Assembly: GCA_031265585.1 (NCBI GenBank)
Contig: JAISCL010000344.1
Coordinates: forward strand, 1 to 38,563
Source: Tannerella sp.
Lineage (GTDB): Bacteria > Bacteroidota > Bacteroidia > Bacteroidales > Tannerellaceae
Direction of reading: 5' to 3'
Length of the DNA stretch: 38,563 nt
The position numbers were made by a program, and so were the translations under genes. The notes beneath the pieces are model-generated. The model was given only the letters and a program-made list of their open reading frames with translations. It was not told the DNA's origin and made no database searches. This document shows positions 1,251 through 34,314 of this stretch, one piece after another (the stretch's first letter is position 1; every line of letters starts with the position of its first letter).

Positions 1251-1252
1251 GG

Positions 1253-2137: not shown

Positions 2138-2144
2138 GGAAGAT

Positions 2145-3862: not shown

Positions 3863-3871
3863 GAAAAATAA

Positions 3872-4046: not shown

Positions 4047-7000
4047 ATGACAAAGGTAAATATAAAATTTAAAATAGCAAAGAGAATTGTGAACAAGACA
4101 TTACTCTGTACACAGATATTCATTGTTTTGGGAATGATATTGACAGCAAATCATTCTTACGCACAACAGATTAAAGTGGAGGGTCTGATCCTGGACGCCG
4201 CCACGAATGAACCTGTTGCCGGCGCGACCGTTTCCATCGTTAACGGAGAAAACGGTACGGCAGCCGACATAAACGGTACGTTTTCCATAGACGTAAACGC
4301 TTTTCCTGCCACGATTTCGATCAGTTCCATAGGATACAGAACACTGGAAGTCGAATTTTACGAGTATTCCGAACCTGTTACCCTCTTTTTGCAGGAAAAT
4401 TTAAGCCTGCTCAACGAAGTTGTGGTAATCGGTTACGGAACACAGAAACGAAGGGAATTAACGGGCGTAATCGCTTCGGTACCGCAGACGGTGCTGAATC
4501 AGAGCGCCAGTTCGTTTGACAACACGTTGGGCGGATCGGTTCCCGGTATCCAGGTAACTCAAAGTTCCGGCCAGCCCGGCGCTACGTCGTCCGTTCGTAT
4601 TCGGGGAAGCAATTCGATCACCGGAGGCAATGAACCGCTGTATGTGATCGATGGATTTATTGTCTATAACGACAATAATTTCTCGACCACCGGCGAGGTA
4701 ACATCCAAGATACCGCGTGCCGATGCCGGCCTGAACGTCCTTTCAACCATCAATCCTTCGGATATTGAATCAATTGACATATTGAAAGATGCTTCTGCAA
4801 CCGCTATCTACGGCACACGGGGGGCAAACGGCGTCATCATCGTAACGACCAGAAAAGGCATAAAAGGCGCCAATCGCGTACAAATACGTTCATCGCTCGG
4901 ATGGCAGCAAGTTACAAAAAAACTTGATTTGCTCAACGGACCCGAATGGGCGTCACTGTATAACGACATACTTGAAAGTCAGAGTGGAAAGCCGTTTTTT
5001 GATGTCAACAGCGTTCAATCGTATGACTGGCAATCGGAGGCATTGCGTACAGGCGCCGTGCGCGATTTGCAGGCGTCTATCAGTGGCGGCGACGAGAAGA
5101 CGCGCTACTCCGTATCCGGGGGATATTCAACGAACGAAGGCATCGTACTCAATACCGATTTTACACGTTATTCATTTCGCATTAACCTCGACCGGGAAGT
5201 GTCGAAAAAATTCCGTTTCGGTGTGAACGCTATTGGCAGCGCCTCGACTCAGAACGGTCTGGCCCAGCTTAACGATAATGATAACCGTGTCAACACTTGG
5301 TTTACCGTACTGCGCACTCCGCCGGTGCTGCCTGTCTACGACGGTAACGGCTCATTCAATTATGTTAACCCATACGCGGAAGAAATCATTCGAGGCATCA
5401 CCCCCAACGCGATTGCCGACCTTGAAAACACGATCAGCGAAACAAAGACGGGACGGACACTTGGCAATTTCTACGGCGAGTTCACGTTCTTTCAGGGATT
5501 AACTGCAAAATTGAACATTGGCGCAGACTATCTAAGCACAAAACAAAATTTCTTCGCCCCGTTTACTACCTGGGGAGGGTTTAAAACCGATGGATTTGCC
5601 TCTGTTGGCGCCAAGTTTGCAACCGCATGGCAAGCGGAGTTTACCGTTAACTACGACAGGAAATTTGTCGGCGGACACACGGTTTCCGCTCTCGCAGGAT
5701 ACACTGTGCAGCGTACGGATGTCGCATCGGCACAGGCCATTGCATCCGGTTTTCTCAACGACAAGACGACGTTCAACAGTTTGCAAAGCGCCTCAATCTC
5801 CTCGCTGCCTTATTCCGATGAGATAAAAAGCATTATCCGCTCATATCTCGGACGCATCAATTATTCGTATCGCGACCGTTATCATCTGACTGCCACCTTG
5901 CGGGCCGACGGTTCTTCGCGTTTCGGAGCAAACAATCACTGGGCATATTTCCCTTCGGTAGGCATTTCATGGAACCTTAACGAAGAAGGATTTCTGCGTG
6001 AATACAAAAAACTCAGTAATTTCAAACTTCGAGTGAGCGCCGGCCTGGTCGGCAATCAGGAAATTGGCAACTACATGTACGAAAGTCGCTACACGCCTGC
6101 CAACTATTCTTTTGACGGTAAGATCGTCACCGGATTTGTACCTGCAAACATGGGCAATAAAGATTTGAAATGGGAAAAAACGGCACAATATAATGCCGGA
6201 ATTGATTTGGGCTTCTGGAATGACCACCTGTCGATCGCATTCGATTCATATTACAAGAAAACGACCGATTTGCTGCTTGATTTGCCTACACAAACGACAA
6301 CAGGTTTCGTGACGGTTCTCAAAAACATAGGAAGCGTTGAGAATAAAGGACTCGAATTAGGCATAACCGGCCGCATAGTCGACCGTAAAGGTTTGCAATG
6401 GACAAGTACTCTCAACTGGTCGCTCAACCGCAATAAAGTGACGAATCTCGGCGGCCTGCCCTCCTTTTTTCCCGAATTTCCCAATAACGGCTCGCTTATA
6501 AGCATCAATCCTGTTATCGTGAAGGAAGGCGAACCGATAGGAACGTTCTATGGATGGAAGTTCGACGGCATCGTGCAGGAAGGCGAGGATTTGTCGAAGA
6601 TACCGGTTCCCGGTTTCGGCAGTTTTGCCGGCGGGTCAGTGCATGTGGGCGACCCTAAGTACCGCGAGAAAGAAGGCTCAGTGGACGGCAAAGTGGACAA
6701 TGCCGACAAGGATGTGCTTGGCAGTATACAGCCCGATTTCATTTATGGTTTCAATAATACCGTCATTTGGCGGGCCTTTGATTTGTCGCTCTTTCTGCAA
6801 GGCAGTCAGGGAAACGAACTGTACAATGCACTCGCCAATAAGGCCGAACTGACTACGCTTGTCTATAACACGCCACACAAAATAGCCGATCGCTGGACCG
6901 GTTCCAATCCATCCAACGAAACGCCTCGCGCCATCAGCGCCAGTAACTTCTATATGGACAGCCGTTATATCGAGGATGCTTCATATCTCAAATTGAAGCT

Positions 7001-7229
7001 TCTCACACTGGGATATACCTTTCCATTGCAGGGCCTAACGAAGATTAAATCATCGGCGCGACTGTTTTTTACAGCACAGAACCTGTTTACTGTCACTAAT
7101 TATACAGGCTATGACCCCGAAGCGTCGCGCCATGGCGGCAATGAACAGACAGGCCTCTTGCAGGGCGTTGACTTTGGCGCCTATCCATCATCAAGAAGTT
7201 TTATTTTCGGAGTAGAAATTAATTTATAA
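4047..7229 (+). CDS. SusC-type TonB-dependent outer-membrane transporter, first copy
   Basis: This 1060-residue protein is an outer-membrane beta-barrel that imports large or scarce nutrients using TonB energy. It has a signal peptide cleaved near Ala39 (HSYA/QQ), a carboxypeptidase-regulatory-like domain (about 42-115), the SusC segment EVVVIGYGTQKR around 125-136, a plug domain with GQPGATSSVRIRG, and a C-terminal barrel ending in an aromatic-rich strand. No STN domain precedes the regulatory-like domain, so direct control by an anti-sigma partner is not expected. It pairs with the SusD gene 10 nt downstream. The N-terminal 130 residues are nearly identical to the second SusC, but the rest has diverged, implying a different ligand. 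The substrate is not visible from sequence; context points to a sulfur compound or peptide. Confidence 0.95.
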   Translation: MTKVNIKFKIAKRIVNKTLLCTQIFIVLGMILTANHSYAQQIKVEGLILDAATNEPVAGATVSIVNGENGTAADINGTFSIDVNAFPATISISSIGYRTLEVEFYEYSEPVTLFLQENLSLLNEVVVIGYGTQKRRELTGVIASVPQTVLNQSASSFDNTLGGSVPGIQVTQSSGQPGATSSVRIRGSNSITGGNEPLYVIDGFIVYNDNNFSTTGEVTSKIPRADAGLNVLSTINPSDIESIDILKDASATAIYGTRGANGVIIVTTRKGIKGANRVQIRSSLGWQQVTKKLDLLNGPEWASLYNDILESQSGKPFFDVNSVQSYDWQSEALRTGAVRDLQASISGGDEKTRYSVSGGYSTNEGIVLNTDFTRYSFRINLDREVSKKFRFGVNAIGSASTQNGLAQLNDNDNRVNTWFTVLRTPPVLPVYDGNGSFNYVNPYAEEIIRGITPNAIADLENTISETKTGRTLGNFYGEFTFFQGLTAKLNIGADYLSTKQNFFAPFTTWGGFKTDGFASVGAKFATAWQAEFTVNYDRKFVGGHTVSALAGYTVQRTDVASAQAIASGFLNDKTTFNSLQSASISSLPYSDEIKSIIRSYLGRINYSYRDRYHLTATLRADGSSRFGANNHWAYFPSVGISWNLNEEGFLREYKKLSNFKLRVSAGLVGNQEIGNYMYESRYTPANYSFDGKIVTGFVPANMGNKDLKWEKTAQYNAGIDLGFWNDHLSIAFDSYYKKTTDLLLDLPTQTTTGFVTVLKNIGSVENKGLELGITGRIVDRKGLQWTSTLNWSLNRNKVTNLGGLPSFFPEFPNNGSLISINPVIVKEGEPIGTFYGWKFDGIVQEGEDLSKIPVPGFGSFAGGSVHVGDPKYREKEGSVDGKVDNADKDVLGSIQPDFIYGFNNTVIWRAFDLSLFLQGSQGNELYNALANKAELTTLVYNTPHKIADRWTGSNPSNETPRAISASNFYMDSRYIEDASYLKLKLLTLGYTFPLQGLTKIKSSARLFFTAQNLFTVTNYTGYDPEASRHGGNEQTGLLQGVDFGAYPSSRSFIFGVEINL

Positions 7230-7239: not shown

Positions 7240-8757
7240 ATGAAAAAGAATACTATTTTATCGCTGATATTTCCCGCTTTGCTTTTTGTTGCCTGCGAGG
7301 ATTTGAATATTAGTCCTTCCGGTTCGATTGCCGGGAGCGACTATTACAATACGGAAGAAGATGCAACGGCGGCCGTGACAGGTGTTTACAACGTACTGAC
7401 ATACGAAAAGAACACGACAAGCTATTATGGCGACATGCTGCTCTATCTCATAGACCTTTCGACTGACTATATGCGGGCGGCAGCCAACAGTCAAAGCCCT
7501 GATACAAGGGCGCTCTCGTCGGTTACATTCGATGCGGGACAGCTGCATGTCAAAACGGTATGGGAGCAGTCCTACCGCGGCATCAGTCGCGCTAATCTGG
7601 CAATCGGCAATATTCCCCGCGTCAAGGGCGACGAGACCTTGAAAAACAGACTGATAAACGAAGCAAAGTTTCTTCGCGCGCTGTTCTATTTCAATCTTGT
7701 CCAGTTATACGGCGATGTACCTTTGATCACAAGCGGCGAGTACAAAACGGAAGATTTGAACCGCGCTCCCGTGGAAGACGTTTATTCTCAAATAATCAAA
7801 GACTTGACGGATGCGCAACAACTGCCTGAAATACAAGCCGAAAAAGGCAGGGCGACCACAGGCTCGGCAACGGCTCTGCTGGCGCGCGTTTACCTTGTCA
7901 GGGCAAGTATCGCCAACAGCGCCGATGACTACCGGAAAGCGGCACAATATGCACAGGAAGTAACCGGTAGCGGAGTATACCGTTTGATCGAAAACTACTA
8001 TGATCTTTGGGATCCGGCAAAGAAAAACGGGCCGGAGCACATTTTTTCCGCTCAGTTCACGCACGGACAGGCCGGTACAGGCGCCGGCAATTCTATTTCG
8101 CATTGTGTATTCAGCACCGGACTGACCAATAATGAACCGGTACTGCTGATTACCGACGTGGCACAATTCTATGATGTTTTCGATGATAGCGATCAGCGCA
8201 AAGACGTTTCGTACGCAAAGCGTTTGTTCGACGCATCGAAAGATTCGTATTTTGAATTTACGGTTCCCCGTTTTCGCAAGTATATTGATACAACGATCCT
8301 TGCTACAAGTACAAGTCAGGCTGCTATCAATGTGCCGGTCATCCGTTATGCCGATGTGCTTTTCACGCTGGCGGAGGCTACCAACGAGGTGGACGGGCCA
8401 AACAGTGTCGCTTACAGTGCGCTGAACCGGATACGACGCCGTGCATACCGCCAACCGCCTGACGCCGCTTCGCCTTATGATGTATTGCCGGGATTGACAA
8501 AGGAAGGTTTTCGTGATCTTCTCCGCGCCGAACGCTACAAGGAATTTGTAACGGAACAGACGCGCTGGTTCGACCTTGTGCGCTGGAAAATACTCGTCAA
8601 AACGGTCAAGAGTGTGCCCGGTAAAAATATTGATTTTAAGAACTACCGCTTCCCTGTCCCGCAGCGGGAGCGCGACATCAACCCCGAAGGTCTCTGGCAG
8701 AACTGGGGCTACGAAGATTCGAAAATACAAACAAACCCTTATCAAGGATATGAATAA
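7240..8757 (+). CDS. SusD/RagB-type nutrient-binding lipoprotein, first copy
   Basis: This 505-residue surface lipoprotein forms the lid of the preceding SusC transporter. The signal peptide ends in a lipobox with Cys19 (LLFVAC). SusD hallmarks include the early ISPSGS segment, the INEAKFLRALFYFNLVQLYG helix, and the C-terminal RAERYKEFVTEQTRWFDLVRW block ending in a PVPQRERDINP-type segment. It is about 45-50 percent identical by eye to the second SusD in this locus. Its final codons overlap the start of the M20 hydrolase by 8 nt, so the hydrolase is translated together with it. Confidence 0.95.
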   Translation: MKKNTILSLIFPALLFVACEDLNISPSGSIAGSDYYNTEEDATAAVTGVYNVLTYEKNTTSYYGDMLLYLIDLSTDYMRAAANSQSPDTRALSSVTFDAGQLHVKTVWEQSYRGISRANLAIGNIPRVKGDETLKNRLINEAKFLRALFYFNLVQLYGDVPLITSGEYKTEDLNRAPVEDVYSQIIKDLTDAQQLPEIQAEKGRATTGSATALLARVYLVRASIANSADDYRKAAQYAQEVTGSGVYRLIENYYDLWDPAKKNGPEHIFSAQFTHGQAGTGAGNSISHCVFSTGLTNNEPVLLITDVAQFYDVFDDSDQRKDVSYAKRLFDASKDSYFEFTVPRFRKYIDTTILATSTSQAAINVPVIRYADVLFTLAEATNEVDGPNSVAYSALNRIRRRAYRQPPDAASPYDVLPGLTKEGFRDLLRAERYKEFVTEQTRWFDLVRWKILVKTVKSVPGKNIDFKNYRFPVPQRERDINPEGLWQNWGYEDSKIQTNPYQGYE

Positions 8758-10015
8758 AATTATTTCCATACTGGTGATTATTTCGGTAAGTATTGCATCG
8801 CTTTCCGCCTCAGACAGGAAACCTTTTTACAAGGCTCTGATTTTAGAGAAAGTAAAAGAAATCGACCCTTATGTGCGAAGTATTCGCGGGTACGTCCATG
8901 AACATCCCGAAAAGTCGCTTCAGGAGTTCGAAACCTCGAAATTCCTCAAAGCTGAAGTCGAAAAACTCGGACTGAAAGTTTATCCATCGTCTCCAACCGG
9001 CTTTTATACCATACTTGAAACCGGGCGTCCGGGCAAGACGGTCGCTTTACGTACCGACATTGACGCACTGCCGGTGAAGGAGAATCCCTTCAATCTGAAA
9101 CAGACCAAACGGTGGATCTCAAAGAACGATGGCGTCGCGCACGTTTGCGGACACGATGGACATATCGCCGTTTTGCTTGGTACGCTGAAGATATTGAACG
9201 GTCTCAAAGACCGCCTGAAGGGCCGTATCATATTTATTTTTGAAGACGCGGAAGAGATTGCAGGCGGAGTGGATAATATGATCAAGGCCCTGTCGGAATA
9301 CAGGATTGACGCTATTTATGGCAATCATGTCAATGCGGCAATACCTGTGGGAGAATTATCAATTACCGAAGGACCCGTTATGGCGGGTGCGGCAGGTATC
9401 GGTTTCGATGTGATCGGACGGGGCGGACATGCCTCGCGACCCGATCAATCCATCAATCCGGTATATGCTGCCGCCCATATTCTGACGGGAATATCAGTCG
9501 CATGGAACAACCAGATTGACATTACCAAGACAGTTACTTTAGGCATCACGCAGATTCATGGCGGAGAGGCAAGTAATATCTTCCCCAATTCGGTTTTTAT
9601 TGGCGGCACGTTAAGGTTTTTTGACCGTACGGCCGGCGAACAGGCCGTCGAAGTGTTTAAACGCGTAGCTTCGTCCGTAGCCGAAGCTCATAATGCGCAG
9701 GTAAAGTTTTCCGAAGAAAGCAAAGTGAGTATGGAACCTGTTGTCAATGACAGTTCTCTGGCTTCCATTGCGCGTGAGGTTGCCGGAGAACTGTTCCCGG
9801 GACACATCCTATCGGGAGATCAGATGTACGGATGCGAGCCGTTTTCGAGGTATCGTTCCATTGCTCCCATACTCTACATCTTTATCGGCATCGCAAATGA
9901 CGAATTGGGAAGCGGAGCGGCGCATCACAACGACAAGTTTGATATCGACGAAGACGCCCTTCAATATGGCGTTGGCGCAATGGTCGGATTTGCAGTCAAA
10001 ATGACAGAACAATAA
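8750..10015 (+). CDS. Secreted M20 family metallo-amidohydrolase
   Basis: This 421-residue protein belongs to the M20D amidohydrolases (hippurate, IAA-amino-acid and N-acyl-amino-acid hydrolases), which remove an acyl group from an amino acid or similar amide using two metal ions. Visible are RTDIDALP (101-108), the metal site HVCGHDGH (131-138, with Cys133, His135, His138), the catalytic EE at 168-169, GNHV, and a late HH pair. An N-terminal hydrophobic signal (residues 1-20) points to the periplasm. The start at 8750 overlaps the susD stop, indicating translational coupling, so it probably processes the ligand delivered by this SusCD pair. An N-acylated sulfur amino acid such as N-acyl-methionine would fit the neighbourhood (inference). 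Confidence 0.9.
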   Translation: MNKIISILVIISVSIASLSASDRKPFYKALILEKVKEIDPYVRSIRGYVHEHPEKSLQEFETSKFLKAEVEKLGLKVYPSSPTGFYTILETGRPGKTVALRTDIDALPVKENPFNLKQTKRWISKNDGVAHVCGHDGHIAVLLGTLKILNGLKDRLKGRIIFIFEDAEEIAGGVDNMIKALSEYRIDAIYGNHVNAAIPVGELSITEGPVMAGAAGIGFDVIGRGGHASRPDQSINPVYAAAHILTGISVAWNNQIDITKTVTLGITQIHGGEASNIFPNSVFIGGTLRFFDRTAGEQAVEVFKRVASSVAEAHNAQVKFSEESKVSMEPVVNDSSLASIAREVAGELFPGHILSGDQMYGCEPFSRYRSIAPILYIFIGIANDELGSGAAHHNDKFDIDEDALQYGVGAMVGFAVKMTEQ

Positions 10016-10037
10016 TTTATAATTCAATTTTTATGGC

Positions 10038-10216: not shown

Positions 10217-13200
10217 ATGACAAAGGTAAATATAAAATTTAAAACAGCAAAGAAAATCGTGAACAGGATATTCATTGTTTTGGGAATGATCTTTATATCA
10301 AATCATTCTTACGCGCAACAGGTTAAAGTGGAGGGTCTGATTCTGGACGCCGCCACGAATGAACCGGTTGCCGGTGCGAACGTGTTCCTCCTCAATGAGA
10401 AAAACGGTACTGTAGCCGACCTGAACGGGGCGTTTTCCGTAAACGTAAATGCTTTCCCCGCCACGATTTCGATTAGTTTCATAGGATACAGGACGCTTGA
10501 AATGGAAGTGTATGAGTATCCCGAACCTCTTACCGTCTTTTTGCAGGAAAACCTGAACCTGATCGACGAAGTTGTGGTAATCGGCTACGGAACACAGAAA
10601 CGGAAAGAGCTGACCGGCTCGGTTGTCTCTATTTCAGCCGAAACGTTGCAACAGCCGGTCACATCTTTCGACCAGATCTTAAGCGGAGCCGTGCCGGGCG
10701 TCGCCGTCAATCAGAACTCGGGACAGCCGGGCGCCTCGTCCACGATCCGGATCCGCGGCGGCAATTCGATCAACGGCGGTAACGAACCGCTTTTTGTGAT
10801 TGACGGTTTCATCGTTTACAACGATAACAATAACAGTAAAACAAACGTTGGACAGGACTTGTCTGCTATCGGCGGCATTGACGCCAATATCAACCTGCTG
10901 TCAACCATCAATCCCGCCGACATCGAATCCATAGAAATATTGAAAGATGCTTCGGCTACGGCCATCTACGGTACGCGCGGTGCAAACGGGGTGATCATCA
11001 TTACTACTAAAAAGGGGAAAAAAGGGTCAAACAACATCTCGTACCGGTCGGCGGCGGGATGGTCGGAAATTGCGAAAACCCCCAAACTGCTCAGCGGCCC
11101 CGAATGGTGGGCGTTTTACAGGGATTTCAATTCGGCAGGCGTGGTCGCACAGGTAGAGGCAAATGGCGGCTTCGACCCGAACAGCACCGCGGACTGGGTG
11201 GGCGAGGCCCTGCAAAAGGGTATCACGCAAGACCATCAACTGTCCATTAGCGGGGGAGACCACAAAGGCCGTTACGCCGTTTCGGGCAACTATACTTCGC
11301 AGTCCGGGATCCTTAGAAACACCGGATACGAACGTTACTCGCTTCGCGCCAACCTCGACCGGGAAGTGTTCCGGAATTTCCGTATCGGGCTGAATGTACT
11401 CGGCAGTTACGCCGTACAAAATTCACTGGGAACCTATAACCACGACAATGAGGTAAATTCGTGGGTATCCATCCTGAGATCTTCGCCCGTAGTGCCGGTC
11501 TACAACGCCGACGGTACGTTCAACCATTACAACCCGTTTGCCGATAATCCGGAAGAAAACGCGCTGTCCGACCTGCTGACCACCACCAGCGAAACCAAAG
11601 CAAACCGGGCGCTGGGTAACTTTTATGCCGAATATAAGATAGCGCCCGACCTGACAGCGAAAGTAAACCTGGGCGCCGACCTGCTCGGAAGCAATCAAAA
11701 TTACTACGCCCCGAAAGATGCGATCGGCGGACACAAATCAAACGGCTATGCTTTGAAAGGCAATAAAACAGCCCATTCGTGGCAATCGGAATTTACGCTG
11801 AACTACGACCGGACATACAACGAAATTCATCGCGCCGGCGCCCTGTTCGGATACACTTACCAGCGCTCGGATCTCGAATACGGCAACGCTATCGCGACCA
11901 ATTTCCAGAACGAAGCGACAAAGCACAACAGCCTGCAGAGCGGTACGCCTTCAACCCCGTATTCGGGGATTGAAACAAGCGTCCTGGTTTCGTACCTTGG
12001 CCGGGTGAATTACACGTTGCGTGATAAATACAATTTGACCCTTACGTTGCGTGCCGACGGCTCGTCGCGTTTCGGCCCGGATAACCACTGGGCTTATTTC
12101 CCTGCCGCCGGCCTGTCGTGGAATGTGAATAACGAATCATTCCTGAAAGCATACGGGACGTTAAGCAACCTCAAACTGCGTGTAAGCGCCGGCATCACCG
12201 GAAACCAGGAAATACCGGCATATCTTTACGAAAATACGCTTGTGCCGGAAACCTATTCGTATGGCGGCACGGTGGTCGTCGGATTTGCGCCGGGTATCAC
12301 AAAGCCCAATCCCGGTTTGAAATGGGAACGCACGACCCAGTACAACGCGGGGATTGACCTCGGGCTACGGAAAGACCGCATTACGGTGACATTCGACGCT
12401 TACTACAAGAAAACCACAGACCTGTTGCTGCTCCTGCCCGTCGAAAAAACGACAGGATACGAAAATACGTATGCCAATGCAGGTTCCGTTTCCAATAAAG
12501 GCATCGAGATCGGCCTGAACATCCACGCCTTCAAGTCCAAAAACTTTAACTGGCATACCGGACTGAACGGGTCGCGCAACGTAAACAAGGTACTTGACCT
12601 CGGAGGACTGGACGAAATACAGCCCATATTCCCGGCTGCAGGAGCGCTCTCAACCGTATATCCCACAATCGTCAGGCCGGGGCTTCCGCTGGGTACGTTT
12701 TATGGCTATCGCTTTGAAGGTGTGGTACAGCAGGGCGAAGACGTCTCGACGGTACCTGTCGCTTCATGGATCACCGACCCGGCCTTTCAGCCTCAACCCG
12801 GCTATCCGAAATATGCAAACCAGAACGACGATCATGTGATTACATCCGAAGACAAAGTGGTACTGGGTAACGCCCAGCCCGATTTCATTGCCGGCTTCAA
12901 CAACACGTTCGTCTTCAAGAGGTGGGACGCTTCATTCTATTTCCTGGCAAGTTACGGCAACGAACTGTACAATGCCCTCGAAAATAAACTGAACATACCC
13001 TACCATAACTACAACGCCTCGGCAGCCCTGAAAGACAGATGGACGACAGGTAATCCGTCGAACAGCGTCCCCAAGGCATACGAAGCAAGCACTTTCGTCA
13101 TGGACGACCGCTTTATTGAGGACGCCTCCTACCTGAGACTGAAAAATGTGACGGTCGGATATACCGTCCCGTTCCGCATCAGGGGATTGACCCAAAAACC

Positions 13201-13384
13201 GTCGTTGCGTATATTCTTTACGGCTCAAAACCTGTTCACGCTGACCGGATACAAAGGTTTCGACCCCGAAGCGTCACGTATCGGAAATACAAGCTACGAA
13301 CAGAGTTCGCTCTATCAGGGCGTCGATTACGGCGCATATCCTTCGACAAGAACATTCCTGTTCGGTATTAATTTAAACTTATAA
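10217..13384 (+). CDS. SusC-type TonB-dependent outer-membrane transporter, second copy
   Basis: This 1055-residue protein has the same architecture as the first copy: signal peptide cleaved near Ala33 (HSYA/QQ), carboxypeptidase-regulatory-like domain, EVVVIGYGTQKR segment, plug with GQPGASSTIRIRG, and a large barrel. Its signal region is six residues shorter than copy 1. By eye its body is richer in G and C at third positions than the first SusC, while leader and first 130 codons are almost the same in both. That mosaic pattern suggests gene conversion or copying of a 5' regulatory and export module onto a different transporter body. It pairs with the SusD 13 nt downstream. Confidence 0.95.
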   Translation: MTKVNIKFKTAKKIVNRIFIVLGMIFISNHSYAQQVKVEGLILDAATNEPVAGANVFLLNEKNGTVADLNGAFSVNVNAFPATISISFIGYRTLEMEVYEYPEPLTVFLQENLNLIDEVVVIGYGTQKRKELTGSVVSISAETLQQPVTSFDQILSGAVPGVAVNQNSGQPGASSTIRIRGGNSINGGNEPLFVIDGFIVYNDNNNSKTNVGQDLSAIGGIDANINLLSTINPADIESIEILKDASATAIYGTRGANGVIIITTKKGKKGSNNISYRSAAGWSEIAKTPKLLSGPEWWAFYRDFNSAGVVAQVEANGGFDPNSTADWVGEALQKGITQDHQLSISGGDHKGRYAVSGNYTSQSGILRNTGYERYSLRANLDREVFRNFRIGLNVLGSYAVQNSLGTYNHDNEVNSWVSILRSSPVVPVYNADGTFNHYNPFADNPEENALSDLLTTTSETKANRALGNFYAEYKIAPDLTAKVNLGADLLGSNQNYYAPKDAIGGHKSNGYALKGNKTAHSWQSEFTLNYDRTYNEIHRAGALFGYTYQRSDLEYGNAIATNFQNEATKHNSLQSGTPSTPYSGIETSVLVSYLGRVNYTLRDKYNLTLTLRADGSSRFGPDNHWAYFPAAGLSWNVNNESFLKAYGTLSNLKLRVSAGITGNQEIPAYLYENTLVPETYSYGGTVVVGFAPGITKPNPGLKWERTTQYNAGIDLGLRKDRITVTFDAYYKKTTDLLLLLPVEKTTGYENTYANAGSVSNKGIEIGLNIHAFKSKNFNWHTGLNGSRNVNKVLDLGGLDEIQPIFPAAGALSTVYPTIVRPGLPLGTFYGYRFEGVVQQGEDVSTVPVASWITDPAFQPQPGYPKYANQNDDHVITSEDKVVLGNAQPDFIAGFNNTFVFKRWDASFYFLASYGNELYNALENKLNIPYHNYNASAALKDRWTTGNPSNSVPKAYEASTFVMDDRFIEDASYLRLKNVTVGYTVPFRIRGLTQKPSLRIFFTAQNLFTLTGYKGFDPEASRIGNTSYEQSSLYQGVDYGAYPSTRTFLFGINLNL

Positions 13385-13397: not shown

Positions 13398-14957
13398 ATG
13401 AAAAAGACAATAATAACAGTATGGATTGGATTCGGCATGATGGCCGCTTCCTGCACGGAGGAGCTTGATCAGCATCCGTCGGGACTGCTCACCGACAGCA
13501 ATTATTTTCAAACGGAAGACGATGCGGTTACGGCTGTGGACGGCGTGTACGCCATCCTGGTTCACAGCGACAAAAATACGCCCCTCTACGGAGACCAGAT
13601 TTTGTATCTCAGTGATTTGACCTCCGATTATATGAGAGCCGGTGCAAACTCCAACAGTCCCGAAACCCGTGCGATAAGTTCGGTCGGTTACGATGCCGGC
13701 AACTTTGAGATTCAATGTACCTGGGAGCAGATATACAAAGGCATTGCCCGCGCGAATATCGCCGTAGACAATATTCCCAACGTAAACGCTTCGGACGAAG
13801 TCCGGCAGCGCCTGATTAACGAAGCCAAATTCCTTCGCGCACTGCTCTATTTTAATGCCGTACAGTTTTGGGGTGACATCCCGCTTGTCAAGTCGAGCGA
13901 ATACAGCGCGGAAGACCTCAACCGTCATCCGGTCGAAGACGTTTACGATTTTATCATTCGGGATTTGGAAGACGCTTCGGCATTGCCCCCGGAACAAAGC
14001 GCGGCAGGCAGGGCGACAGGCGGTTCCGCCGACGCGCTGCTGGCCAGGGTTTACCTCGTTCATTCGAGCTTGTCCGGCGCCAATGCGGCTTCCGACTTGA
14101 ACAGCGCAGTACAGTACGCTTACAGGGTCATCAACAGCGGTCGATACGAACTGTTTGCCAACTTCTACGATGCGTTCGACCCGGCTAAAAAGAACGGCAA
14201 AGAACACATCTTTTCGGCACAGTTTGCCTACGGACAGGATAACGGTTTTTCGGGTAATTCGGCGCAGCATTGCACCTGGAGTACCGGGTTCAATCAGAAT
14301 GAGCCGGTATTAATTATCACGGATTTGGATTTGTTCTACAACTCTTATGCCGAAGGCGACCAGCGCAGGGACGGCAGTTACGCGAAACGGCTGTACAACC
14401 CCGCCGATAACAGCACCTTTGAGTTTGATTTGCCCCGTTTCCGCAAGCTTATCGACACGGTTTACGGCGCGAACTGGCTCGCTTCGGCAATCAACGTTCC
14501 CGTGATCCGCTACGCCGACGTGTATTTCACCCTGGCGGAAGCGCTCAACGAACTGGGCGGTCCCGACAGCGAACATAACGGCATTTCGGCTTACGACGCC
14601 CTCAACGAAATCCGCCGTCGCGCTTTCCGCGAGGGGAAATACAGCGCCGGCGCGGACAGTCCCGGAACCCCGCCGTATGCGCATGATTTGAGCGGACTGA
14701 CAAAAGAATCCTTTCGTGACGTCCTGCAGCAGGAGCGTTATTTCGAGTTTGTTCTCGAACAGACGCGCTGGTTCGACCTTGTACGCTGGAAAAAACTTGT
14801 AACGTCCGTCAGCCGTACAAAGCCGGCGGTTTCGGTGCGCAACTACCGTTTCCCGATACCCCATTCGGAGCGGCTGCTCAACCCCGAAGGCTTATGGCAA
14901 AATTACGGTTATGACGGCGCGACCGTTTCCAACCCGTATGACGAAAGTTATAAATAA
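13398..14957 (+). CDS. SusD/RagB-type nutrient-binding lipoprotein, second copy
   Basis: This 519-residue protein has a lipobox with Cys19 (MAASC) and the usual SusD blocks: LDQHPSG near the N-terminus, RLINEAKFLRALLYFNAVQF in the first third, a RYADVYFTLAEALNELGG segment and the C-terminal QERYFEFVLEQTRWFDLVRW. It partners the second SusC at the cell surface. A short GC-rich hairpin lies between its stop and the nitrogenase-like genes. No hydrolase follows it, unlike the first pair. Confidence 0.95.
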   Translation: MKKTIITVWIGFGMMAASCTEELDQHPSGLLTDSNYFQTEDDAVTAVDGVYAILVHSDKNTPLYGDQILYLSDLTSDYMRAGANSNSPETRAISSVGYDAGNFEIQCTWEQIYKGIARANIAVDNIPNVNASDEVRQRLINEAKFLRALLYFNAVQFWGDIPLVKSSEYSAEDLNRHPVEDVYDFIIRDLEDASALPPEQSAAGRATGGSADALLARVYLVHSSLSGANAASDLNSAVQYAYRVINSGRYELFANFYDAFDPAKKNGKEHIFSAQFAYGQDNGFSGNSAQHCTWSTGFNQNEPVLIITDLDLFYNSYAEGDQRRDGSYAKRLYNPADNSTFEFDLPRFRKLIDTVYGANWLASAINVPVIRYADVYFTLAEALNELGGPDSEHNGISAYDALNEIRRRAFREGKYSAGADSPGTPPYAHDLSGLTKESFRDVLQQERYFEFVLEQTRWFDLVRWKKLVTSVSRTKPAVSVRNYRFPIPHSERLLNPEGLWQNYGYDGATVSNPYDESYK

Positions 14958-15041: not shown

Positions 15042-16517
15042 ATGGCAATAGATGTAAAGAGTAAATTATGCGGATCCCGTGAATCGCGGATCGGGTCAAT
15101 AACCGGTTATTCCGGAACGTTACAGGAGATCGGGCAGGAAATCACCTGCGACGGTTGTCCGGGTGAGCGGAAGAGGTGCTTCAGCCAGGCAGCGGGCTGT
15201 GCATCGGGTTGTGCGCTGGCGCAGGCTGCTGAAATCAATGACGTCGCCATTGTCCACCACGGGCCTTCGGGGTGTGCCGCCATTGCACAGGTCAAACCGG
15301 CTTTTGACCTGCTTGCGAATGCGATAGGCCGCGACAGGAGCAGTTTTGCCTATACCTGTACGGATATGACGGAAGCCGATACGGTGTTCGGAGCTACCGA
15401 AAACCTGAAAGAGGCCGTGATCGAAACTTATAACCGGTATCATCCCAAAGCGATTTTTGTCGGGGCATCGTGTGTGAGCGGCGTTATCGGCGAAGATCTG
15501 GAAGGCATTATCGAGGACGTAAGGGATGTCATCGGTATTCCTGTTGCTCCCATTCACTGCGAGGGATTCAAATCGCAGATCTGGGCATCGGGATTTGACG
15601 CAACCTATCATGCCATCCTGAAATACATCGTCAAACCGCCGCAGAAGAAAACCAACAAAGTCAATATCATCGGTTTCACGGCAGGTATGGCCTGGAACAC
15701 ACGCGACGACATCATACGCCTGCTTGATGTGCTCGGGCTTGAGCCGACATTTCTGCTGGCCGCCTCGACGGTCGGGGAACTGGAACACCTGTCGGAAGCG
15801 ACCGCATCCATCACCACCTGCAGCACCCTGTCCTCCTATCTCGGCATTGGCCTGGAGACGGCATACGGCGTCCCCTTCATACGTTCCCTGCAGCCGCACG
15901 GGATTACGGGATACGAAGACCTGGCCCGCCAACTGTCCAAAGTCGTCGGGAAGGAAGCGGAAATGGAAGCCTTCCTGCAGAAGGAAAGGAGCCTGTACCT
16001 GCCCGCAATCGAAAAGATAGGGGAGCAGTTGACGGGCAAACGCGCCATGATCGCAATGGGCCCGAATCTGGGAGCGAACATAGCCCGTGTATTGCAGGAG
16101 TTCGGCATGAAGATTGAGCACCTTACGGCCTGGCATTTCGACAAGCAATATGACGACGGCACCCGTCCGCAGGCGCTGCAATACCTGATTGACCATTCGC
16201 CGGAGAATTTCACTTATTCGGTGAATCACCTGCAGAACTTTGAATTTATGAACATCCTCCATACCATCAAACCCGACATTTTCGTCTCAAGACATCCCGA
16301 TTCGGCTATCTGGTCCATGAAGATAGGCGTCCCGGGCTACTGTGTCTACGACGAATACAACGTTTTCGGATACAAAGGCACGCTTCGCTTCGGAAAGACC
16401 CTGCTGGATCTGATCCTGAATCGCAGCTTCACCGAAAACCTGTCGAAACATGTCCGCCTGCCCTACACGGACTGGTGGATGCAGCAGAAACCGGATACTT
16501 TTTTACTGGCAAACTAA
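15042..16517 (+). CDS. Nitrogenase-like reductase, NifD-like (alpha) subunit
   Basis: This 491-residue protein belongs to the nitrogenase component 1 / protochlorophyllide reductase superfamily. P-cluster-type cysteines align with NifD by context and spacing: Cys53 (NifD Cys62), Cys78 in HHGPSGC (Cys88) and Cys144 in GASCVSGVIGEDLE (Cys154); the 78-to-144 interval equals NifD's 66. Cys260 in TASITTCST falls where NifD has cofactor ligand Cys275. Lys445 in FGYKG stands where NifD has His442, and the positions of NifD Gln191 and His195 are Trp181 and Phe185, so N2 reduction is unlikely. There are extra N-terminal cysteines (10, 36, 39, 46, 57). The start at 15042 is preferred over an in-frame ATG at 15006, which adds an unrelated hydrophobic stretch. 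A NifK-like gene follows after 14 nt. A methylthio-alkane-reductase-like function (MarD) is the favoured inference; a NifE-like scaffold is the alternative. Confidence 0.85.
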   Translation: MAIDVKSKLCGSRESRIGSITGYSGTLQEIGQEITCDGCPGERKRCFSQAAGCASGCALAQAAEINDVAIVHHGPSGCAAIAQVKPAFDLLANAIGRDRSSFAYTCTDMTEADTVFGATENLKEAVIETYNRYHPKAIFVGASCVSGVIGEDLEGIIEDVRDVIGIPVAPIHCEGFKSQIWASGFDATYHAILKYIVKPPQKKTNKVNIIGFTAGMAWNTRDDIIRLLDVLGLEPTFLLAASTVGELEHLSEATASITTCSTLSSYLGIGLETAYGVPFIRSLQPHGITGYEDLARQLSKVVGKEAEMEAFLQKERSLYLPAIEKIGEQLTGKRAMIAMGPNLGANIARVLQEFGMKIEHLTAWHFDKQYDDGTRPQALQYLIDHSPENFTYSVNHLQNFEFMNILHTIKPDIFVSRHPDSAIWSMKIGVPGYCVYDEYNVFGYKGTLRFGKTLLDLILNRSFTENLSKHVRLPYTDWWMQQKPDTFLLAN

Positions 16518-16531
16518 AAAAGAGAAATAAT

Positions 16532-17836
16532 ATGGTAAAAATTTTAGATGAACCGAGGTATGTATGTGCGCTCGGCGCTTCGCAGACAGTGCTGGCAATA
16601 CACCGGGCCGTGCCGGTCTTCCATTCGGGTTCCGGCTGCGCCGCCCGCGTATCGGGCGACGGATCGGGGACGGGCTACCTGGCAACCAATACGCTGCCCT
16701 GCTCCAATATAGGCGAGACGGAAGTCGTCTTCGGCGGCGAAAACAAATTGCGCGACATCATAAGCAATTCGCTGAGGGTGATCGATGGCGATCTGTTTGT
16801 CGTACTCTCCGGCTGTACGACCGAAATCGTAGGCGATGATATCGAACAGGTCGTGAGTGAATTTCAGGATGCCGGCAAACCGGTGATCGCCGTCAGCACG
16901 CCGGGATTTAAAGGCACGAATTATGAGGGACACGAGTGGGTGATGGACGCCATCATCCGGCAGTACCTGATCCGCTTGCCGAAAGGTGAAAAAATAAAAG
17001 GACTGGTAAACATCTGGGGCCCAGTACCCTCGCACGACCCGTACTGGCTCGGCGACTTTCGCGAACTCGAAAATCTCGTGCGCGAACTCGGACTGACGCC
17101 GAACGTCGTTTTCGGCGAACACCGGGGGATTGAAAACCTGAATAAGGTACCGCTGGCAGAGTTCAACCTGCTGGTATCGCCCTGGATCGGACTGGGTAAT
17201 ATGGAATTGCTGGAAAAGTCCTTCGGGACGCCCTGCCTCCACTACCCGACCCTGCCCGTCGGCGCTCACGAAAGCTCTGCCTTCCTGCGCGCCGTCGCCG
17301 CATTTGCCGGCCTCGATCCCGAACCGGTAGAAACGGTGATCGCCGAGCATGAAGAAGAATATTACTATTACATCGAACGTTCGGTAAGCGTCTTTTTTGA
17401 AAACCGTACGGCATCCAAGATGTTCTCGACCGTCACGACCTCCTCGCGCGCGCTTGCCATCGCCAAATTCCTGATTAACGACTTCGGACTGATGCCGAAC
17501 AAACAGTATCTTACCGAAAATGTGCCGCTCGAACATCAGGAACGGATCGCCGGCTATTTCCGGAACTTTAACTACGGGATCGAAGCCGAAGTGATATTTT
17601 CGACAGATGGCTACCTCATCCACCGGCAGATAGAAGAAGAATACTTTGCCGGCCCGCCCCTGATTGTCGGCAGCATCTTTGAAAAACAGGTGGTGAAGAA
17701 GCTTTCGGGCAACTTCGTCTGCGTCAGTACGCCTTTCCAGCAGAAAGTCGTGCTTCACAGTTCCTACGTCGGCTATCATGGCGGACTGAAGTTTCTGGAA
17801 GACCTGTATACGGGCGTTTACCAAACCTATAATTAG
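16532..17836 (+). CDS. Nitrogenase-like reductase, NifK-like (beta) subunit
   Basis: This 434-residue protein is the partner of the preceding NifD-like subunit. Cys12 (VCALGA), Cys36 (HSGSGC) and Cys95 (VLSGCTTEIVGDD) match NifK Cys70, Cys95 and Cys153 in sequence context and spacing (24 and 59 residues against 25 and 58). STPGFKGTNYEGH at 122-134 is the usual NifK/NifN/BchB loop. Because all three P-cluster cysteines are present, a NifN-like scaffold role is less likely. It lacks the N-terminal extension of true NifK (about 520 residues). The start at 16532 gives a protein that aligns from its first residues; the upstream in-frame extension overlaps the D gene. The next gene begins on the base after its stop codon. 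Confidence 0.85.
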   Translation: MVKILDEPRYVCALGASQTVLAIHRAVPVFHSGSGCAARVSGDGSGTGYLATNTLPCSNIGETEVVFGGENKLRDIISNSLRVIDGDLFVVLSGCTTEIVGDDIEQVVSEFQDAGKPVIAVSTPGFKGTNYEGHEWVMDAIIRQYLIRLPKGEKIKGLVNIWGPVPSHDPYWLGDFRELENLVRELGLTPNVVFGEHRGIENLNKVPLAEFNLLVSPWIGLGNMELLEKSFGTPCLHYPTLPVGAHESSAFLRAVAAFAGLDPEPVETVIAEHEEEYYYYIERSVSVFFENRTASKMFSTVTTSSRALAIAKFLINDFGLMPNKQYLTENVPLEHQERIAGYFRNFNYGIEAEVIFSTDGYLIHRQIEEEYFAGPPLIVGSIFEKQVVKKLSGNFVCVSTPFQQKVVLHSSYVGYHGGLKFLEDLYTGVYQTYN

Positions 17837-18190
17837 ATGTCCTCCTGTCGAATAGCCATAGCAAGCAGTGACGGGAACACCGTTGATCTGCACTTCGGGC
17901 AGGCGACAAGCCTCCTCATCTATGAAATCGGCGATGAAAAGGTCGATTTTATCGAAGAGCGGGAAGTCCGCCTGATCCCTGGTGAAGCGGCGCATGCGGA
18001 GGCAAACATGGAAATCTTTGCCGGTGCATTGCACGACTGTTCCGCCATTTTTGTGCGGCGGATCGGTCAACGCTCATTACGGTATCTGTTTGAACGGAAA
18101 ATCACGGCCTTTGAAGTGACTTTCTCTTTAAATCACATATTCAATACGCTTTTAAAAAACAGACAGCGGGGCAGAGTCCGCATCCTGTAA
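17837..18190 (+). CDS. NifX-like iron-cofactor-binding protein
   Basis: This 117-residue protein resembles the dinitrogenase iron-molybdenum cofactor binding domain (NifX, NafY and NifB C-terminus). The hallmark is an IAIASSDG strand followed by HFGQA (His19-Ala23) and a LLIYEI strand. Proteins of this family carry or store nitrogenase cofactor precursors. Its ATG immediately follows the TAG of the NifK-like gene, so the two are translationally linked. Its presence suggests that the D/K enzyme holds a NifB-type iron-sulfur cofactor rather than just a [4Fe-4S] cluster; this is inference. Confidence 0.75.
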   Translation: MSSCRIAIASSDGNTVDLHFGQATSLLIYEIGDEKVDFIEEREVRLIPGEAAHAEANMEIFAGALHDCSAIFVRRIGQRSLRYLFERKITAFEVTFSLNHIFNTLLKNRQRGRVRIL

Positions 18191-18215
18191 CAAACAAATA
18201 AACAAACAAAAAAAC

Positions 18216-19574
18216 ATGATATACGGTACTATACTCGAAACCATCGGCAACACGCCGGTCGTAGAACTTACACATACCGGGACGGGCGTTTGCCGCCTGT
18301 TCCTGAAACTTGAGAATCAGAATCCGGGCGGATCGATTAAAGACCGCGTCGGATTAACCATGATTGACGAAGCCGAGAAGCAGGGCCGGCTGAAGCCGGG
18401 AGATACGATTGTCGAAGCGACAGCCGGCAATACCGGACTGGGCCTGGCGCTGGCGGCCCAAATGAAAGGCTATCATCTGATGCTGGTGATTCCGGACAAA
18501 ATGAGCCGGGAAAAGATCAACCATTTACGGGCGATGGGCGTGGAAATCATCCTCACACGCTCCGATGTGACGAAAGGTCATCCGGAATATTACCAGGACC
18601 TGGCAAAACAGATCGCTTCCGAACGGCGCCTCTTTTTCGTGAATCAGTTTGAGAACCCGGCAAATCCCCTGGCGCACGAATCGACGACTGCGCCCGAAAT
18701 ATGGGAACAGATGGAACACCGAGTCGACGCCATCGTTGCCGGTGTCGGTTCATCGGGGACTATCACCGGGCTGACACGCTATTTCAGGAAAAAATCTCCG
18801 CAGACGGAATTTATCCTCGCAGATCCGGAAGGCTCCATACTGGCGGACTATATTAACGAAAACCGGCTGCGGACAGACGCCGGCTCATGGCTTGTCGAGG
18901 GCATCGGCGAAGATTTCATTCCGTCGCTCGCCGATTTCTCCCTGACAAAAAGAGCCTATACCGTCAGCGACCGGGAAAGCTTTACGGCTGTACGCAACCT
19001 GCTCCGGAACGAGGGTATCCTCGCCGGATCGTCTACCGGCACCCTGCTTGCCGCCGCCATACGCTACTGCCGAGAGCAAACGTCCCCTAAACGTGTGGTC
19101 ACTTTCGCCTGCGACAGCGGCAACAAATATCTTTCAAAAATGTACAACGATTACTGGCTCCTCGATCAGGAGCTTGCCGACAGGCCGCGCTTCGGCGATT
19201 TGCGCGATTTTATCTCACGCCGCTACGAAGATAATTCCATTATTTATGTTCATTCCGACGACACCACGAAAACGGTTTACGGTAAATTCAAGCTCTACGA
19301 CATCTCGCAGCTTCCCGTTATCGACGGGAATGAAGTCGTCGGTTTCGTAGACGAATCGGATCTTTTTATGGCCCTGTACACGCAGAATCACAACTGGCTG
19401 ACGCCGGTCGGAGAATTTATGTCCCGGCAACTGACAACGATCTCCCGTACAGCCGGACGCGACGAACTGGCAAAAATCCTCAACAGCGGCCTGGTCGCTA
19501 TCGTCGTTGATCCGGACGGACGTTTTGAAGGCCTGGTCACGAGGATAGATTTTATTAACCATTTAAAAAACTGA
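18216..19574 (+). CDS. Cystathionine beta-synthase with C-terminal CBS domains
   Basis: This 452-residue PLP enzyme joins homocysteine and serine into cystathionine, the first step of reverse transsulfuration. Lys42 in GGSIKDR binds PLP, TAGNTG lies at 69-74 and a GVGSSGT phosphate loop follows. About residues 335-452 form a pair of CBS domains, which cysteine synthases (CysK/CysM) lack, so the CBS assignment is preferred. No heme-binding N-terminal extension is present. It lies 25 nt after the NifX-like gene and 6 nt before the gamma-lyase, and is read as part of the same operon. A cysteine-synthase-like side activity cannot be excluded. Confidence 0.9.
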   Translation: MIYGTILETIGNTPVVELTHTGTGVCRLFLKLENQNPGGSIKDRVGLTMIDEAEKQGRLKPGDTIVEATAGNTGLGLALAAQMKGYHLMLVIPDKMSREKINHLRAMGVEIILTRSDVTKGHPEYYQDLAKQIASERRLFFVNQFENPANPLAHESTTAPEIWEQMEHRVDAIVAGVGSSGTITGLTRYFRKKSPQTEFILADPEGSILADYINENRLRTDAGSWLVEGIGEDFIPSLADFSLTKRAYTVSDRESFTAVRNLLRNEGILAGSSTGTLLAAAIRYCREQTSPKRVVTFACDSGNKYLSKMYNDYWLLDQELADRPRFGDLRDFISRRYEDNSIIYVHSDDTTKTVYGKFKLYDISQLPVIDGNEVVGFVDESDLFMALYTQNHNWLTPVGEFMSRQLTTISRTAGRDELAKILNSGLVAIVVDPDGRFEGLVTRIDFINHLKN

Positions 19575-19580
19575 CGGAAT

Positions 19581-20759
19581 ATGAGTTTAAACAGTCGATA
19601 CGAAGGCTTCTCGACAAAAGCCGTTCATGCGGGCGAAGAACCCGATTTCAGAGAGGGAGCGACCGGCGATGTGGTTGTTCCGATACATTTATCAACCACC
19701 TATGCCCGGCAGAAAGTGACAGTCCCCACCGCGGGATATGAATATGTACGGACACAAAATCCCACACGCAGGGCGCTGGAAATAAAACTCGCCTCCCTGG
19801 AAAATGCGAAATACGGACTGGCGTTCAGCTGCGGCCTGGCTGCAGAAACAACCGTTCTGCTCTCCTTGCTTTATCCCGGCGACCATCTGATCGCGTTCGA
19901 TGATTTATACGGAGGAACGAAGCGTCTGTTTGACAAAATATTCGGCCCGCTCGGTATGGATGTTTCATACGTGGACGCCTCCGATCCGGGCCGTGTGGAC
20001 GGGGCGGTTCGGCCTGCCACAAAATTAGTTTGGATTGAAACGCCGTCCAATCCGCTGCTAAAAATGTCCGATATTAAAGCGATTGCAACGATCACCCGCC
20101 GGCGGGGGTTAATCCTTGTCGTCGATAATACATTCCTTTCGCCTTATTTTCAGAAGCCGCTGGATTTGGGGGCCGACATTGCAGTGCACAGTTCCACGAA
20201 ATACCTCGGCGGGCACAGCGATGTACTCGGAGGCGCCGTGATGCTCAATAGCGACCGGCTTTACGAACGCCTTCAATATCATCAGAACGCCATTGGCGCC
20301 GTCCTCTCGCCTTTCGATTCCTACCTGACCCTGCGGGGGGTCAAAACCCTGGCGCTTCGCATGGAGCAGCACCGAAAGAATGCCCTGGACATAGCACATT
20401 ACCTGGAACAGCATCCGAAAGTCTCCAAAGTCATTTATCCCGGTTTGAAAAGTCATCCGCAATACAGGCTGGCGCGTTCACAGACAACCGGCGCCGGAGG
20501 AGTCCTTTCCTTCGAGATAAAAGGCGCCGTCGCCGATGCGGAGCATTTTTTGGAGAGCCTGAAAATAGTGGCTCTGGCAGAAAGTCTGGGCGGCGTGGAA
20601 TCGCTCATCGAATTGCCCTCGGTAATGACACACGCCTCAGTAGACAAAGAAGTGCGGGAAAAAATCGGAATCACCGACACCCTGATTCGCATGTCGGCAG
20701 GAGTGGAAGATGTAAAAGATTTAATTTCAGATCTGGAACAGGCCTTCAAACAACTGTAA
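19581..20759 (+). CDS. Cystathionine gamma-lyase-type PLP enzyme
   Basis: This 392-residue member of the Cys/Met metabolism PLP family cleaves cystathionine to cysteine, 2-oxobutyrate and ammonia. The PLP lysine is Lys207 in SSTKYLGGHSDV, and SLGGVESLIELP followed by MTHASV is the C-terminal signature typical of gamma-lyases. Together with the upstream beta-synthase it forms a complete reverse transsulfuration pair, turning methionine-derived homocysteine into cysteine. The family also includes cystathionine gamma-synthases and methionine gamma-lyases, which share much of this signature, so activity should be treated as likely rather than certain. It is the last + strand gene of the sulfur locus. 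Confidence 0.88.
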   Translation: MSLNSRYEGFSTKAVHAGEEPDFREGATGDVVVPIHLSTTYARQKVTVPTAGYEYVRTQNPTRRALEIKLASLENAKYGLAFSCGLAAETTVLLSLLYPGDHLIAFDDLYGGTKRLFDKIFGPLGMDVSYVDASDPGRVDGAVRPATKLVWIETPSNPLLKMSDIKAIATITRRRGLILVVDNTFLSPYFQKPLDLGADIAVHSSTKYLGGHSDVLGGAVMLNSDRLYERLQYHQNAIGAVLSPFDSYLTLRGVKTLALRMEQHRKNALDIAHYLEQHPKVSKVIYPGLKSHPQYRLARSQTTGAGGVLSFEIKGAVADAEHFLESLKIVALAESLGGVESLIELPSVMTHASVDKEVREKIGITDTLIRMSAGVEDVKDLISDLEQAFKQL

Positions 20760-32071: not shown

Positions 32072-32076
32072 CTGAT

Positions 32077-34291: not shown

Positions 34292-34314
34292 TTTCAATCT
34301 ATATTTTTTTTGCG

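Follow-up and report, generated by a model that had tools for sequence, protein, structure and literature searches.

Few nitrogenase-like enzymes have known jobs. Those described as sulfur enzymes that we found in the open-access literature are the methylthio-alkane reductase MarBHDK of Rhodospirillum rubrum, whose MarDK subunits cleave carbon-sulfur (C-S) bonds according to PMC12552129, and the isethionate reductase IsrBHDK of Rhodobacter capsulatus. In addition, nif-like genes of unknown role are described in Bacteroides reticulotermitis, from termite gut, and Prevotella bryantii in Inoue 2015 (PMC4356463). Here we analyse a stretch of 38,563 nucleotides, called the window throughout, from a Tannerella sp. 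assembly (GCA_031265585.1, contig JAISCL010000344.1), in which nitrogenase-like genes D, K and X are followed by genes for a cystathionine beta-synthase-like (CBS) and a cystathionine gamma-lyase-like (CGL) protein. Judged by sequence, D and K belong to a clade beside MarDK that we call Mar2, and are not a nitrogenase, NifEN or an isethionate reductase. On present comparisons, the best reading of Mar2 is a new subfamily of enzymes of the methylthio-alkane-reductase type, placed in a context of cysteine supply.

The five genes of the unit are as follows.

15042..16517, + strand: Mar2 D subunit, NifD-like, 491 aa (open reading frame (ORF) call; Pfam PF00148, E 3.8e-74)
16532..17836, + strand: Mar2 K subunit, NifK-like, 434 aa (Pfam PF00148, E 2.7e-64)
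17837..18190, + strand: Mar2 X, NifX-like small protein, 117 aa, with an HFG motif (PF02579, E 2.9e-14)
18216..19574, + strand: CBS, 452 aa (Pfam PALP and two CBS-domain stretches)
19581..20759, + strand: CGL, 392 aa (PF01053, E 6.1e-151)

Junctions recomputed from the ORFs gave gaps of 14, 0, 25 and 6 nt between these consecutive genes, the order and spacing reported in a first-pass annotation of this DNA. That annotation spoke of genes fused into a transsulfuration operon; they are adjacent, not fused. The D-K-X-CBS-CGL unit that it drew stands, although the + strand gene run is longer: it begins at 363 with a MetQ/MetN/MetI-like importer, two SusCD pairs and an M20 hydrolase. The D frame has an additional in-frame ATG at 15006; relatives' proteins start with the MAID at 15042. 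Comparison with a syntenic locus, L045, showed purifying selection on D, K, X, CBS and CGL (dN/dS about 0.04, 0.05, 0.13, 0.07 and 0.11, respectively), and this, together with recurrence of the gene set elsewhere, speaks for more than chance. No title or abstract listed in our searches of an open-access library described a nitrogenase-like enzyme in an operon with CBS/CGL or transsulfuration. This agrees with the earlier impression that the gene set is undescribed, which such a search cannot prove. Reverse transsulfuration itself uses the same two enzymes, CBS and CGL; here, however, they stand in an operon with a nitrogenase-like enzyme.

Affinity and cluster ligands of D and K

We compared D and K with solved structures using phmmer, R. 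rubrum MarDK being represented by PDB 9FMG and 9D9U. Window D scored 301.6 bits with MarD against 122 bits with the best nitrogenase alpha chain, and window K scored 333.6 bits with MarK against 68.8 bits with the next family. Both are nitrogenase component 1 proteins by Pfam and NCBIfam, and both fall below every curated NCBIfam cut-off; the best name for D, nifE, reached 155 bits against a cut-off of 505. An identity as NifE or NifDK taken from NCBIfam names was ruled out by the solved-structure scores and by a tree of 47 rows, 24 for D and 23 for K, which included 11 Mar2 D and 10 Mar2 K proteins. The Mar2 clade is well supported in D (100/99, 11 rows) and in K (100/98, 10 rows) and joins the Mar rows at 100/98 in each half. 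Next outside Mar and Mar2 stands an Isr-like protein from a genome of the same genus, G002 (100/96 in D, 100/99 in K), and NifD, NifE and VnfD stand apart from Mar2. The placement of the long-branch rows (BchN, BchB, Sporomusa, NifN and others) is unsure. NifDK and NifEN were not found in the window's 91%-complete genome, which has just four PF00148 genes, the Mar2 pair and a true MarDK pair. The window makes up one entire contig (C186) of this assembly, which comprises 4.88 Mb in 383 contigs at 91.25% completeness and 3.72% contamination.

The residues point the same way. With ligands and hallmark taken from PMC12552129, the cysteine patterns noted at first sight line up with the MarDK cluster ligands: in its own numbering, window D has P-cluster Cys53, Cys78 and Cys144 and cofactor Cys260, and window K has P-cluster Cys12, Cys36 and Cys95, counted from Met. 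Window D also has an Arg417-His418 pair, corresponding to the Arg428-His429 proposed there as a Mar hallmark, together with Trp181, Phe185 and His365; Ile180 and Trp364 replace MarD His194 and Phe374. Across the clade, in MarD numbering, C66, C91, C158, C270, W195, F199, H375, R428 and H429 are kept in 11/11 Mar2 D proteins, and C32, C56 and C121 in 10/10 Mar2 K proteins. We therefore expect a P-cluster and an [Fe8S9C]-type cluster in Mar2, and the substituted residues suggest that the cofactor would sit in a changed pocket. Nitrogenase features are missing: the column of the cofactor histidine, NifD His442, has Tyr in nine and Ala in two of the Mar2 D proteins, and the NifD Gln191 and His195 columns hold Trp and Phe. 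In the Isr-like protein of G002, C66, C158, C270 and the Arg-His pair are missing, which matches the description of IsrD in PMC11423573.

Compared with MarBHDK, then, Mar2 has the same superfamily branch, the six P-cluster cysteines, the cofactor cysteine, the Arg-His pair, Trp195, Phe199 and His375, and in Bacteroidota relatives a MarH-type Fe protein (H) and a NifB-like maturase (B) adjoin it, with sulfur genes around. It differs in its low identity (32% in D, 39% in K), in three substitutions (H194I, F374W and C73A/G/N), in having a separate X protein and CBS/CGL linkage, and in occurring in an assembly that also has a true Mar. With IsrBHDK it shares the general make-up of a nitrogenase-like enzyme, proposed in the case of Mar2 to assimilate sulfur, that is accompanied by a radical SAM protein and an ABC importer; the IsrD pattern of one of three P-cluster cysteines and no cofactor cysteine is not that of Mar2, which keeps the ligands. 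The nifE/nifN-like genes of B. reticulotermitis and P. bryantii resemble Mar2 in coming from Bacteroidales and in having conserved cysteines and no NifD His442, and one of the two species has a group IV NifH; the accessible part of PMC4356463 describes no sulfur-gene linkage for them, and they are set beside Mar2 by that description only.

Isr-like genes are separate from Mar2, in G002 and in five f106 loci. Among 395 genomes sampled from the class, the window's own was the only one to match D at 1e-60; a phylum sample of 395 genomes, partly the same, gave 29 further genomes with a match at 1e-40, all of one family, and the loci taken from five of them (L141-L145) were all Isr-like. We observed that these five carry Isr-like H-D-K and that long ABC-ATPase-like genes (BLAST) adjoin in four. 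The G002 locus (L042, on contig C167) carries Isr-like H-D-K with a radical SAM protein, an NMT1-type ABC transporter, a gamma-glutamyltranspeptidase, an amidohydrolase and SusCD. Nitrogenase sets also occur in the same genus and a relative, the D/K of L043 grouping with Vnf and those of L099 with Nif, so that Nif, Vnf/Anf-like, Mar, Mar2 and Isr-like enzymes are all found among close relatives.

Recurrence of Mar2 with sulfur genes

We found Mar2 in nine Bacteroidota genomes (G000, G007, G008, G021, G453 and G457-G460), in a Treponema metagenome-assembled genome (MAG) and on plasmid pTS2 of Treponema saccharophilum. Because the genome scan relied on two short peptide patterns, its result of at least eight loci is a lower bound; the eight are MAGs titled Tannerella (three), Prevotellaceae, Bacteroidales, Dysgonamonadaceae, Bacteroidota and Treponema. 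From their sample codes we presume a termite-gut origin for the Mar2 MAGs, for which we looked and found no confirmation. The IMG/VR viral contigs contained 88 stretches that fit a pattern, none of which encodes a Mar2 relative. One genome, G453, was at first taken for a true Mar genome from its profile score and was corrected to Mar2. The gene orders are as follows.

Window and L045: importer-SusC-SusD-D-K-X-CBS-CGL, the window adding an extra SusCD pair and M20
G007: H-B-D-K-X-CBS-CGL
G021: CBS-CGL-H-B-D-K-X
G008: H-B-CBS, where the contig ends; D-K-X lie on a different contig
G460: CysK, encapsulin, cysteine desulfurase, H-B-X-D-K and MetY-like, with CBS-CGL about 25 kb away
G453: B-D-K-MetY
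G458: D-K-X only

The linkage to CBS/CGL on which the first-pass annotation built thus recurs: CBS adjoins H, B, D, K or X genes in five of the nine Bacteroidota Mar2 genomes, lies on the same contig in one and elsewhere in one, and was not found in two. In a genus sample of 41 genomes, CBS of the window type was present in 4/5 with Mar2 (partial in G008) and 0/36 others, giving a hypergeometric value of 5e-5 that ignores relatedness and joint transfer. CBS/CGL is nevertheless one of two partner types, since a MetY-like sulfhydrylase adjoins D/K in L096 and L051; other Mar2 loci carry MetY, CysK, cysteine desulfurase or NMT1-type ABC genes. Having MetY at some loci and CBS-CGL at others fits a thiol as the product, with each locus routing it in its own way. 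At L051, positions 3378-6747 encode a Type 2A encapsulin and a cysteine desulfurase-like protein upstream of the Mar2 genes.

Among the last two genes of the unit, the nearest solved structures support the name CBS, and CGL is named tentatively. CBS reached 269.8 bits over residues 5-449 with cystathionine beta-synthase and 222 with cysteine synthase; it has two regulatory CBS-domain stretches, and its NCBIfam CBS score of 394 lies under the cut-off of 510. CGL reached 429 bits with gamma-lyase, 397 with gamma-synthase (CGS) and 367 with methionine gamma-lyase (MGL), and its best NCBIfam match is the gamma-synthase PRK07811 (501 against a cut-off of 513). Their nearest structures are thus cystathionine beta-synthases and cystathionine gamma-lyases, respectively. 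By analogy with NifX/NafY, X probably carries the cofactor.

In G007, G021 and G460, H and B are direct neighbours of D/K or X; in G453, D has B next to it, and in G008, H-B border on CBS. H-B also head the window-type gene run in G457, and at L045 they lie directly upstream of importer genes that match those of the window. In the window's own genome they are in a true Mar cluster, MarHDKB, on contig C86. The order there is SusC-SusD, an unknown protein, a hydrolase-like protein, an M14 peptidase, a MetY-like protein, H, D, K and a NifB-like protein with an X domain. C86 D scores 847 bits with MarD; where they align, C86 D and K share 73% and 74% identity with their R. rubrum counterparts, and C86 D is 32% identical to window D. 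C86 H (508 bits with MarH) is the genome's sole strong NifH match, at 340 bits against 29 for the other, and C86 has its sole full NifB. Because H and a full B occur in this assembly only in the true Mar cluster, they are probably shared and would serve both enzymes. Moreover, six H proteins linked to Mar2 in relatives share 88-92% identity with C86 H and form one clade with it (92/95), which suggests that one H can serve both Mar and Mar2. Base composition was rejected as proof that C86 and the window are of one organism: it correlates at 0.959 between them and at 0.960 between the window and contigs of another species (G008), so their assignment to one organism rests on binning.

One H and one B also accompany two sets in a named strain, T. 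saccharophilum JCM 32279, a rumen isolate. Its pTS2 stretch carries MetY, CysK, a radical SAM protein (B), X, H, X-K-D (Mar2), GNAT, an NMT1-type ABC importer and D-K-X (Mar). One H and one B therefore stand beside two DKX sets, the situation proposed above for the window's genome, and two such enzymes may share one Fe protein and one maturase per cell.

Proposed pathway and its alternatives

We consider it fairly likely that the operon encodes a second, divergent enzyme of the methylthio-alkane-reductase type, in which thioether C-S reduction would feed homocysteine and cysteine synthesis. An ATP-driven Fe protein, H, would reduce D/K, and electrons would pass through the P-cluster to an [Fe8S9C]-type cluster that a NifB-like protein would have built and X delivered. 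There, reductive C-S cleavage of an imported thioether would yield a thiol plus a hydrocarbon or some other reduced fragment. A MetY-like sulfhydrylase, encoded elsewhere in the genome or beside D/K in relatives, would bring the thiol into methionine or homocysteine, and CBS and CGL would carry sulfur from homocysteine to cysteine. The sequences themselves establish gene content, ligands, phylogeny, linkage and selection, from which the clusters, the C-S reduction, the direction in which sulfur flows and the sharing of H and B are inferred. In general terms, Mar2 of some uncultured Bacteroidota and a Treponema probably breaks C-S bonds, there is a fair probability that it works like Mar, and it likely acts on another substrate. 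If this is true, a deep second clade with full nitrogenase-type ligands and a link to cysteine would mean that reductive C-S chemistry by large Fe-S clusters belongs to a wider sulfur-scavenging family; if confirmed, the habitats of these bacteria would gain one more anaerobic source of sulfur and perhaps one of methane or other hydrocarbons. The Mar2 set of T. saccharophilum, being in a named strain, makes the reading testable.

Several observations weigh against this proposal. At or beside the cluster, H194 is Ile and F374 is Trp in 11/11 Mar2 D proteins, which makes it likely that the substrate differs from that of Mar; C73 is Ala, Gly or Asn, again in 11/11, and with all three positions changed Mar activity cannot be assumed. 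Around the belt sulfur S2B, Trp195 and His375 are kept in all 11 and His194 is lost, so that the Mar pattern is incomplete, although His194 is not universal among Mar-side rows either (Val in Chlorohelix, Thr in T. saccharophilum set 1). In the tree, the D proteins of the Mar side without Mar2 (R. rubrum, C86, T. saccharophilum set 1 and Chlorohelix) group with modest support, 90/71, the corresponding K rows form no resolved clade, a Nostoc component-1 protein beside vnfDK is placed weakly next to the Mar/Isr rows (95/39), and NfaDK, the group IV-A proteins linked to N2 fixation in Endomicrobium, lie outside the rows used. Neither H nor B was found on the window contig, including its first 362 bases. 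Linkage is not uniform: H-B, D-K-X and CBS-CGL are on three separate contigs in G459; no window-type CBS was found in G453, which has Mar2 and MetY, or in G458, where in addition no NifH match exceeded 29 bits. The H of T. saccharophilum shares 53% identity with C86 H, and the tree puts it on the NifH side (100/100), away from the MarH type. Finally, lack of sulfite reductase, considered as a reason for having Mar2, proved inconsistent, a gene of that family being present in two of the five Mar2 genomes of the genus (G008 and G021) and in 18/41 overall.

Could Mar2 instead be an ordinary methylthio-alkane reductase, merely duplicated, that acts on the R. rubrum Mar substrates dimethyl sulfide, ethyl methyl sulfide and methylthioethanol? 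It keeps all cluster ligands and the Arg-His pair, and a MetY-like gene is near it at L096, L051 and the T. saccharophilum locus; yet a true MarDK is already present in the same genome, only 32% identical in D, the two pocket substitutions are invariant and the partner genes differ. We regard plain duplication as unlikely, if the least so of the alternatives. A further shade less likely is a narrower form of our own proposal, that Mar2 cleaves methionine, or another S-substituted homocysteine, imported by the MetQNI-like system, to homocysteine and methane or another reduced fragment, with CBS and CGL then leading to cysteine. The more hydrophobic cluster surroundings, with Ile for His and Trp for Phe, the importer of methionine type in the window and L045, and CBS/CGL are compatible with it; if true, it would be an S-adenosylmethionine-independent route from methionine to cysteine, and organisms would have a new way of producing methane or other hydrocarbons. 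We are slightly more doubtful again that D/K/X and CBS/CGL are neighbours by chance or shared transfer only, with CBS/CGL as housekeeping reverse transsulfuration and Mar2 doing something else. Window-type CBS is missing from what was found in G453 and G458, the genes are unlinked in G459, and the co-occurrence is uncorrected for relatedness or joint transfer. Against this, the set stays together though its order varies (D-K-X-CBS-CGL, CBS-CGL-H-B-D-K-X, H-B-CBS), none of the 36 genus members lacking Mar2 yielded a window-type CBS, and it is again sulfur genes that stand at other Mar2 loci.

Nitrogen fixation seems improbable. A group IV enzyme of the NfaDK type, as predicted for Endomicrobium proavitum, might use the sulfur genes to supply cluster sulfide; H, B and X genes do occur in relatives, and PMC9147875, citing other work, states that E. 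proavitum incorporates N2 with nif-like genes only of the NfaDK type and no NifEN. In Mar2 D, however, the NifD 442 column is Tyr (9) or Ala (2), Trp and Phe stand for Gln191 and His195, and the proteins group with MarDK, albeit in a tree without NfaD. Most improbable of all is a sulfonate (isethionate-type) reductase or a NifEN-like scaffold for cofactor assembly. NMT1-type (sulfonate-like) ABC genes are near some relatives and the best NCBIfam name of D is nifE (155 bits, cut-off 505), but IsrD lacks the equivalents of NifD Cys62, Cys154, Cys275 and His442 according to PMC11423573, and Mar2 keeps the first three; a separate Isr-like set in G002 falls outside Mar2; and the search of the genome turned up no NifDK that a scaffold could serve.

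The first-pass annotation had named two outcomes that would tell against it: D/K inside NifDK or NifEN with a complete nif cluster elsewhere, and no conserved linkage with the sulfur genes. Our results went the other way, as D/K group with MarDK, no NifDK/EN was found and the CBS/CGL linkage recurs. Its idea of reductive organosulfur assimilation feeding cysteine gains from the Mar affinity and that linkage, and has to be tempered by the pocket residues, different in 11/11, and by CBS/CGL being one of two partners. It had also counted SusCD import as part of the set. The pairs are present; because SusCD pairs are common in Bacteroidota, their linkage to D/K says little.

Other features of the window

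Upstream of D, the gene run consists of the following.

363..1250, + strand: NlpA/MetQ-like lipoprotein 1
1205..2137, + strand: NlpA/MetQ-like lipoprotein 2
2055..3191, + strand: MetN-like ABC ATPase with NIL domain (start uncertain, perhaps 2103 or 2145)
3197..3862, + strand: MetI-like ABC permease (PF00528; syntenic in L045)
4047..7229, + strand: SusC-like TonB-dependent receptor 1
7240..8757, + strand: SusD-like lipoprotein 1
8750..10015, + strand: M20-family amidohydrolase with a signal-peptide-like N terminus (by eye; absent from the corresponding place in L045)
10217..13384, + strand: SusC-like TonB-dependent receptor 2 (syntenic in L045)
13398..14957, + strand: SusD-like lipoprotein 2 (syntenic in L045)

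A role for the M20 hydrolase in a mercapturate-type pathway was considered and dropped as speculative, there being no M20 at the corresponding place in L045; a C86 protein taken for M20 because of an HACGHN motif matched no Pfam family at 1e-10. A search for promoters of the Bacteroidota type gave a single -7-like box at 274 and no clear promoter, and since the + strand of the window has nine such boxes we make no claim for it. Rfam across eight sources returned a tRNA only; a SAM riboswitch was not found. The SusC leaders had no Rfam match at gathering score and one weak CRISPR-repeat match below it. These leaders, of about 180 bp, are near-identical, precede both SusC genes (3863-4046 and 10016-10216) and each contain a hairpin, GGGGATGCCCT/AGGGCATCCC. 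In L045, as judged by eye, two stem pairs are changed on both arms and still paired, and two others are broken.

Farther along, on the minus strand, positions 30800-36581 encode a BtrH_N/DUF4872 protein, a ketoacyl-synthase-III-like protein and two proteins without a Pfam match. An ABC transporter at 30800-32811 belongs beside this group, which is perhaps a small natural-product cluster.

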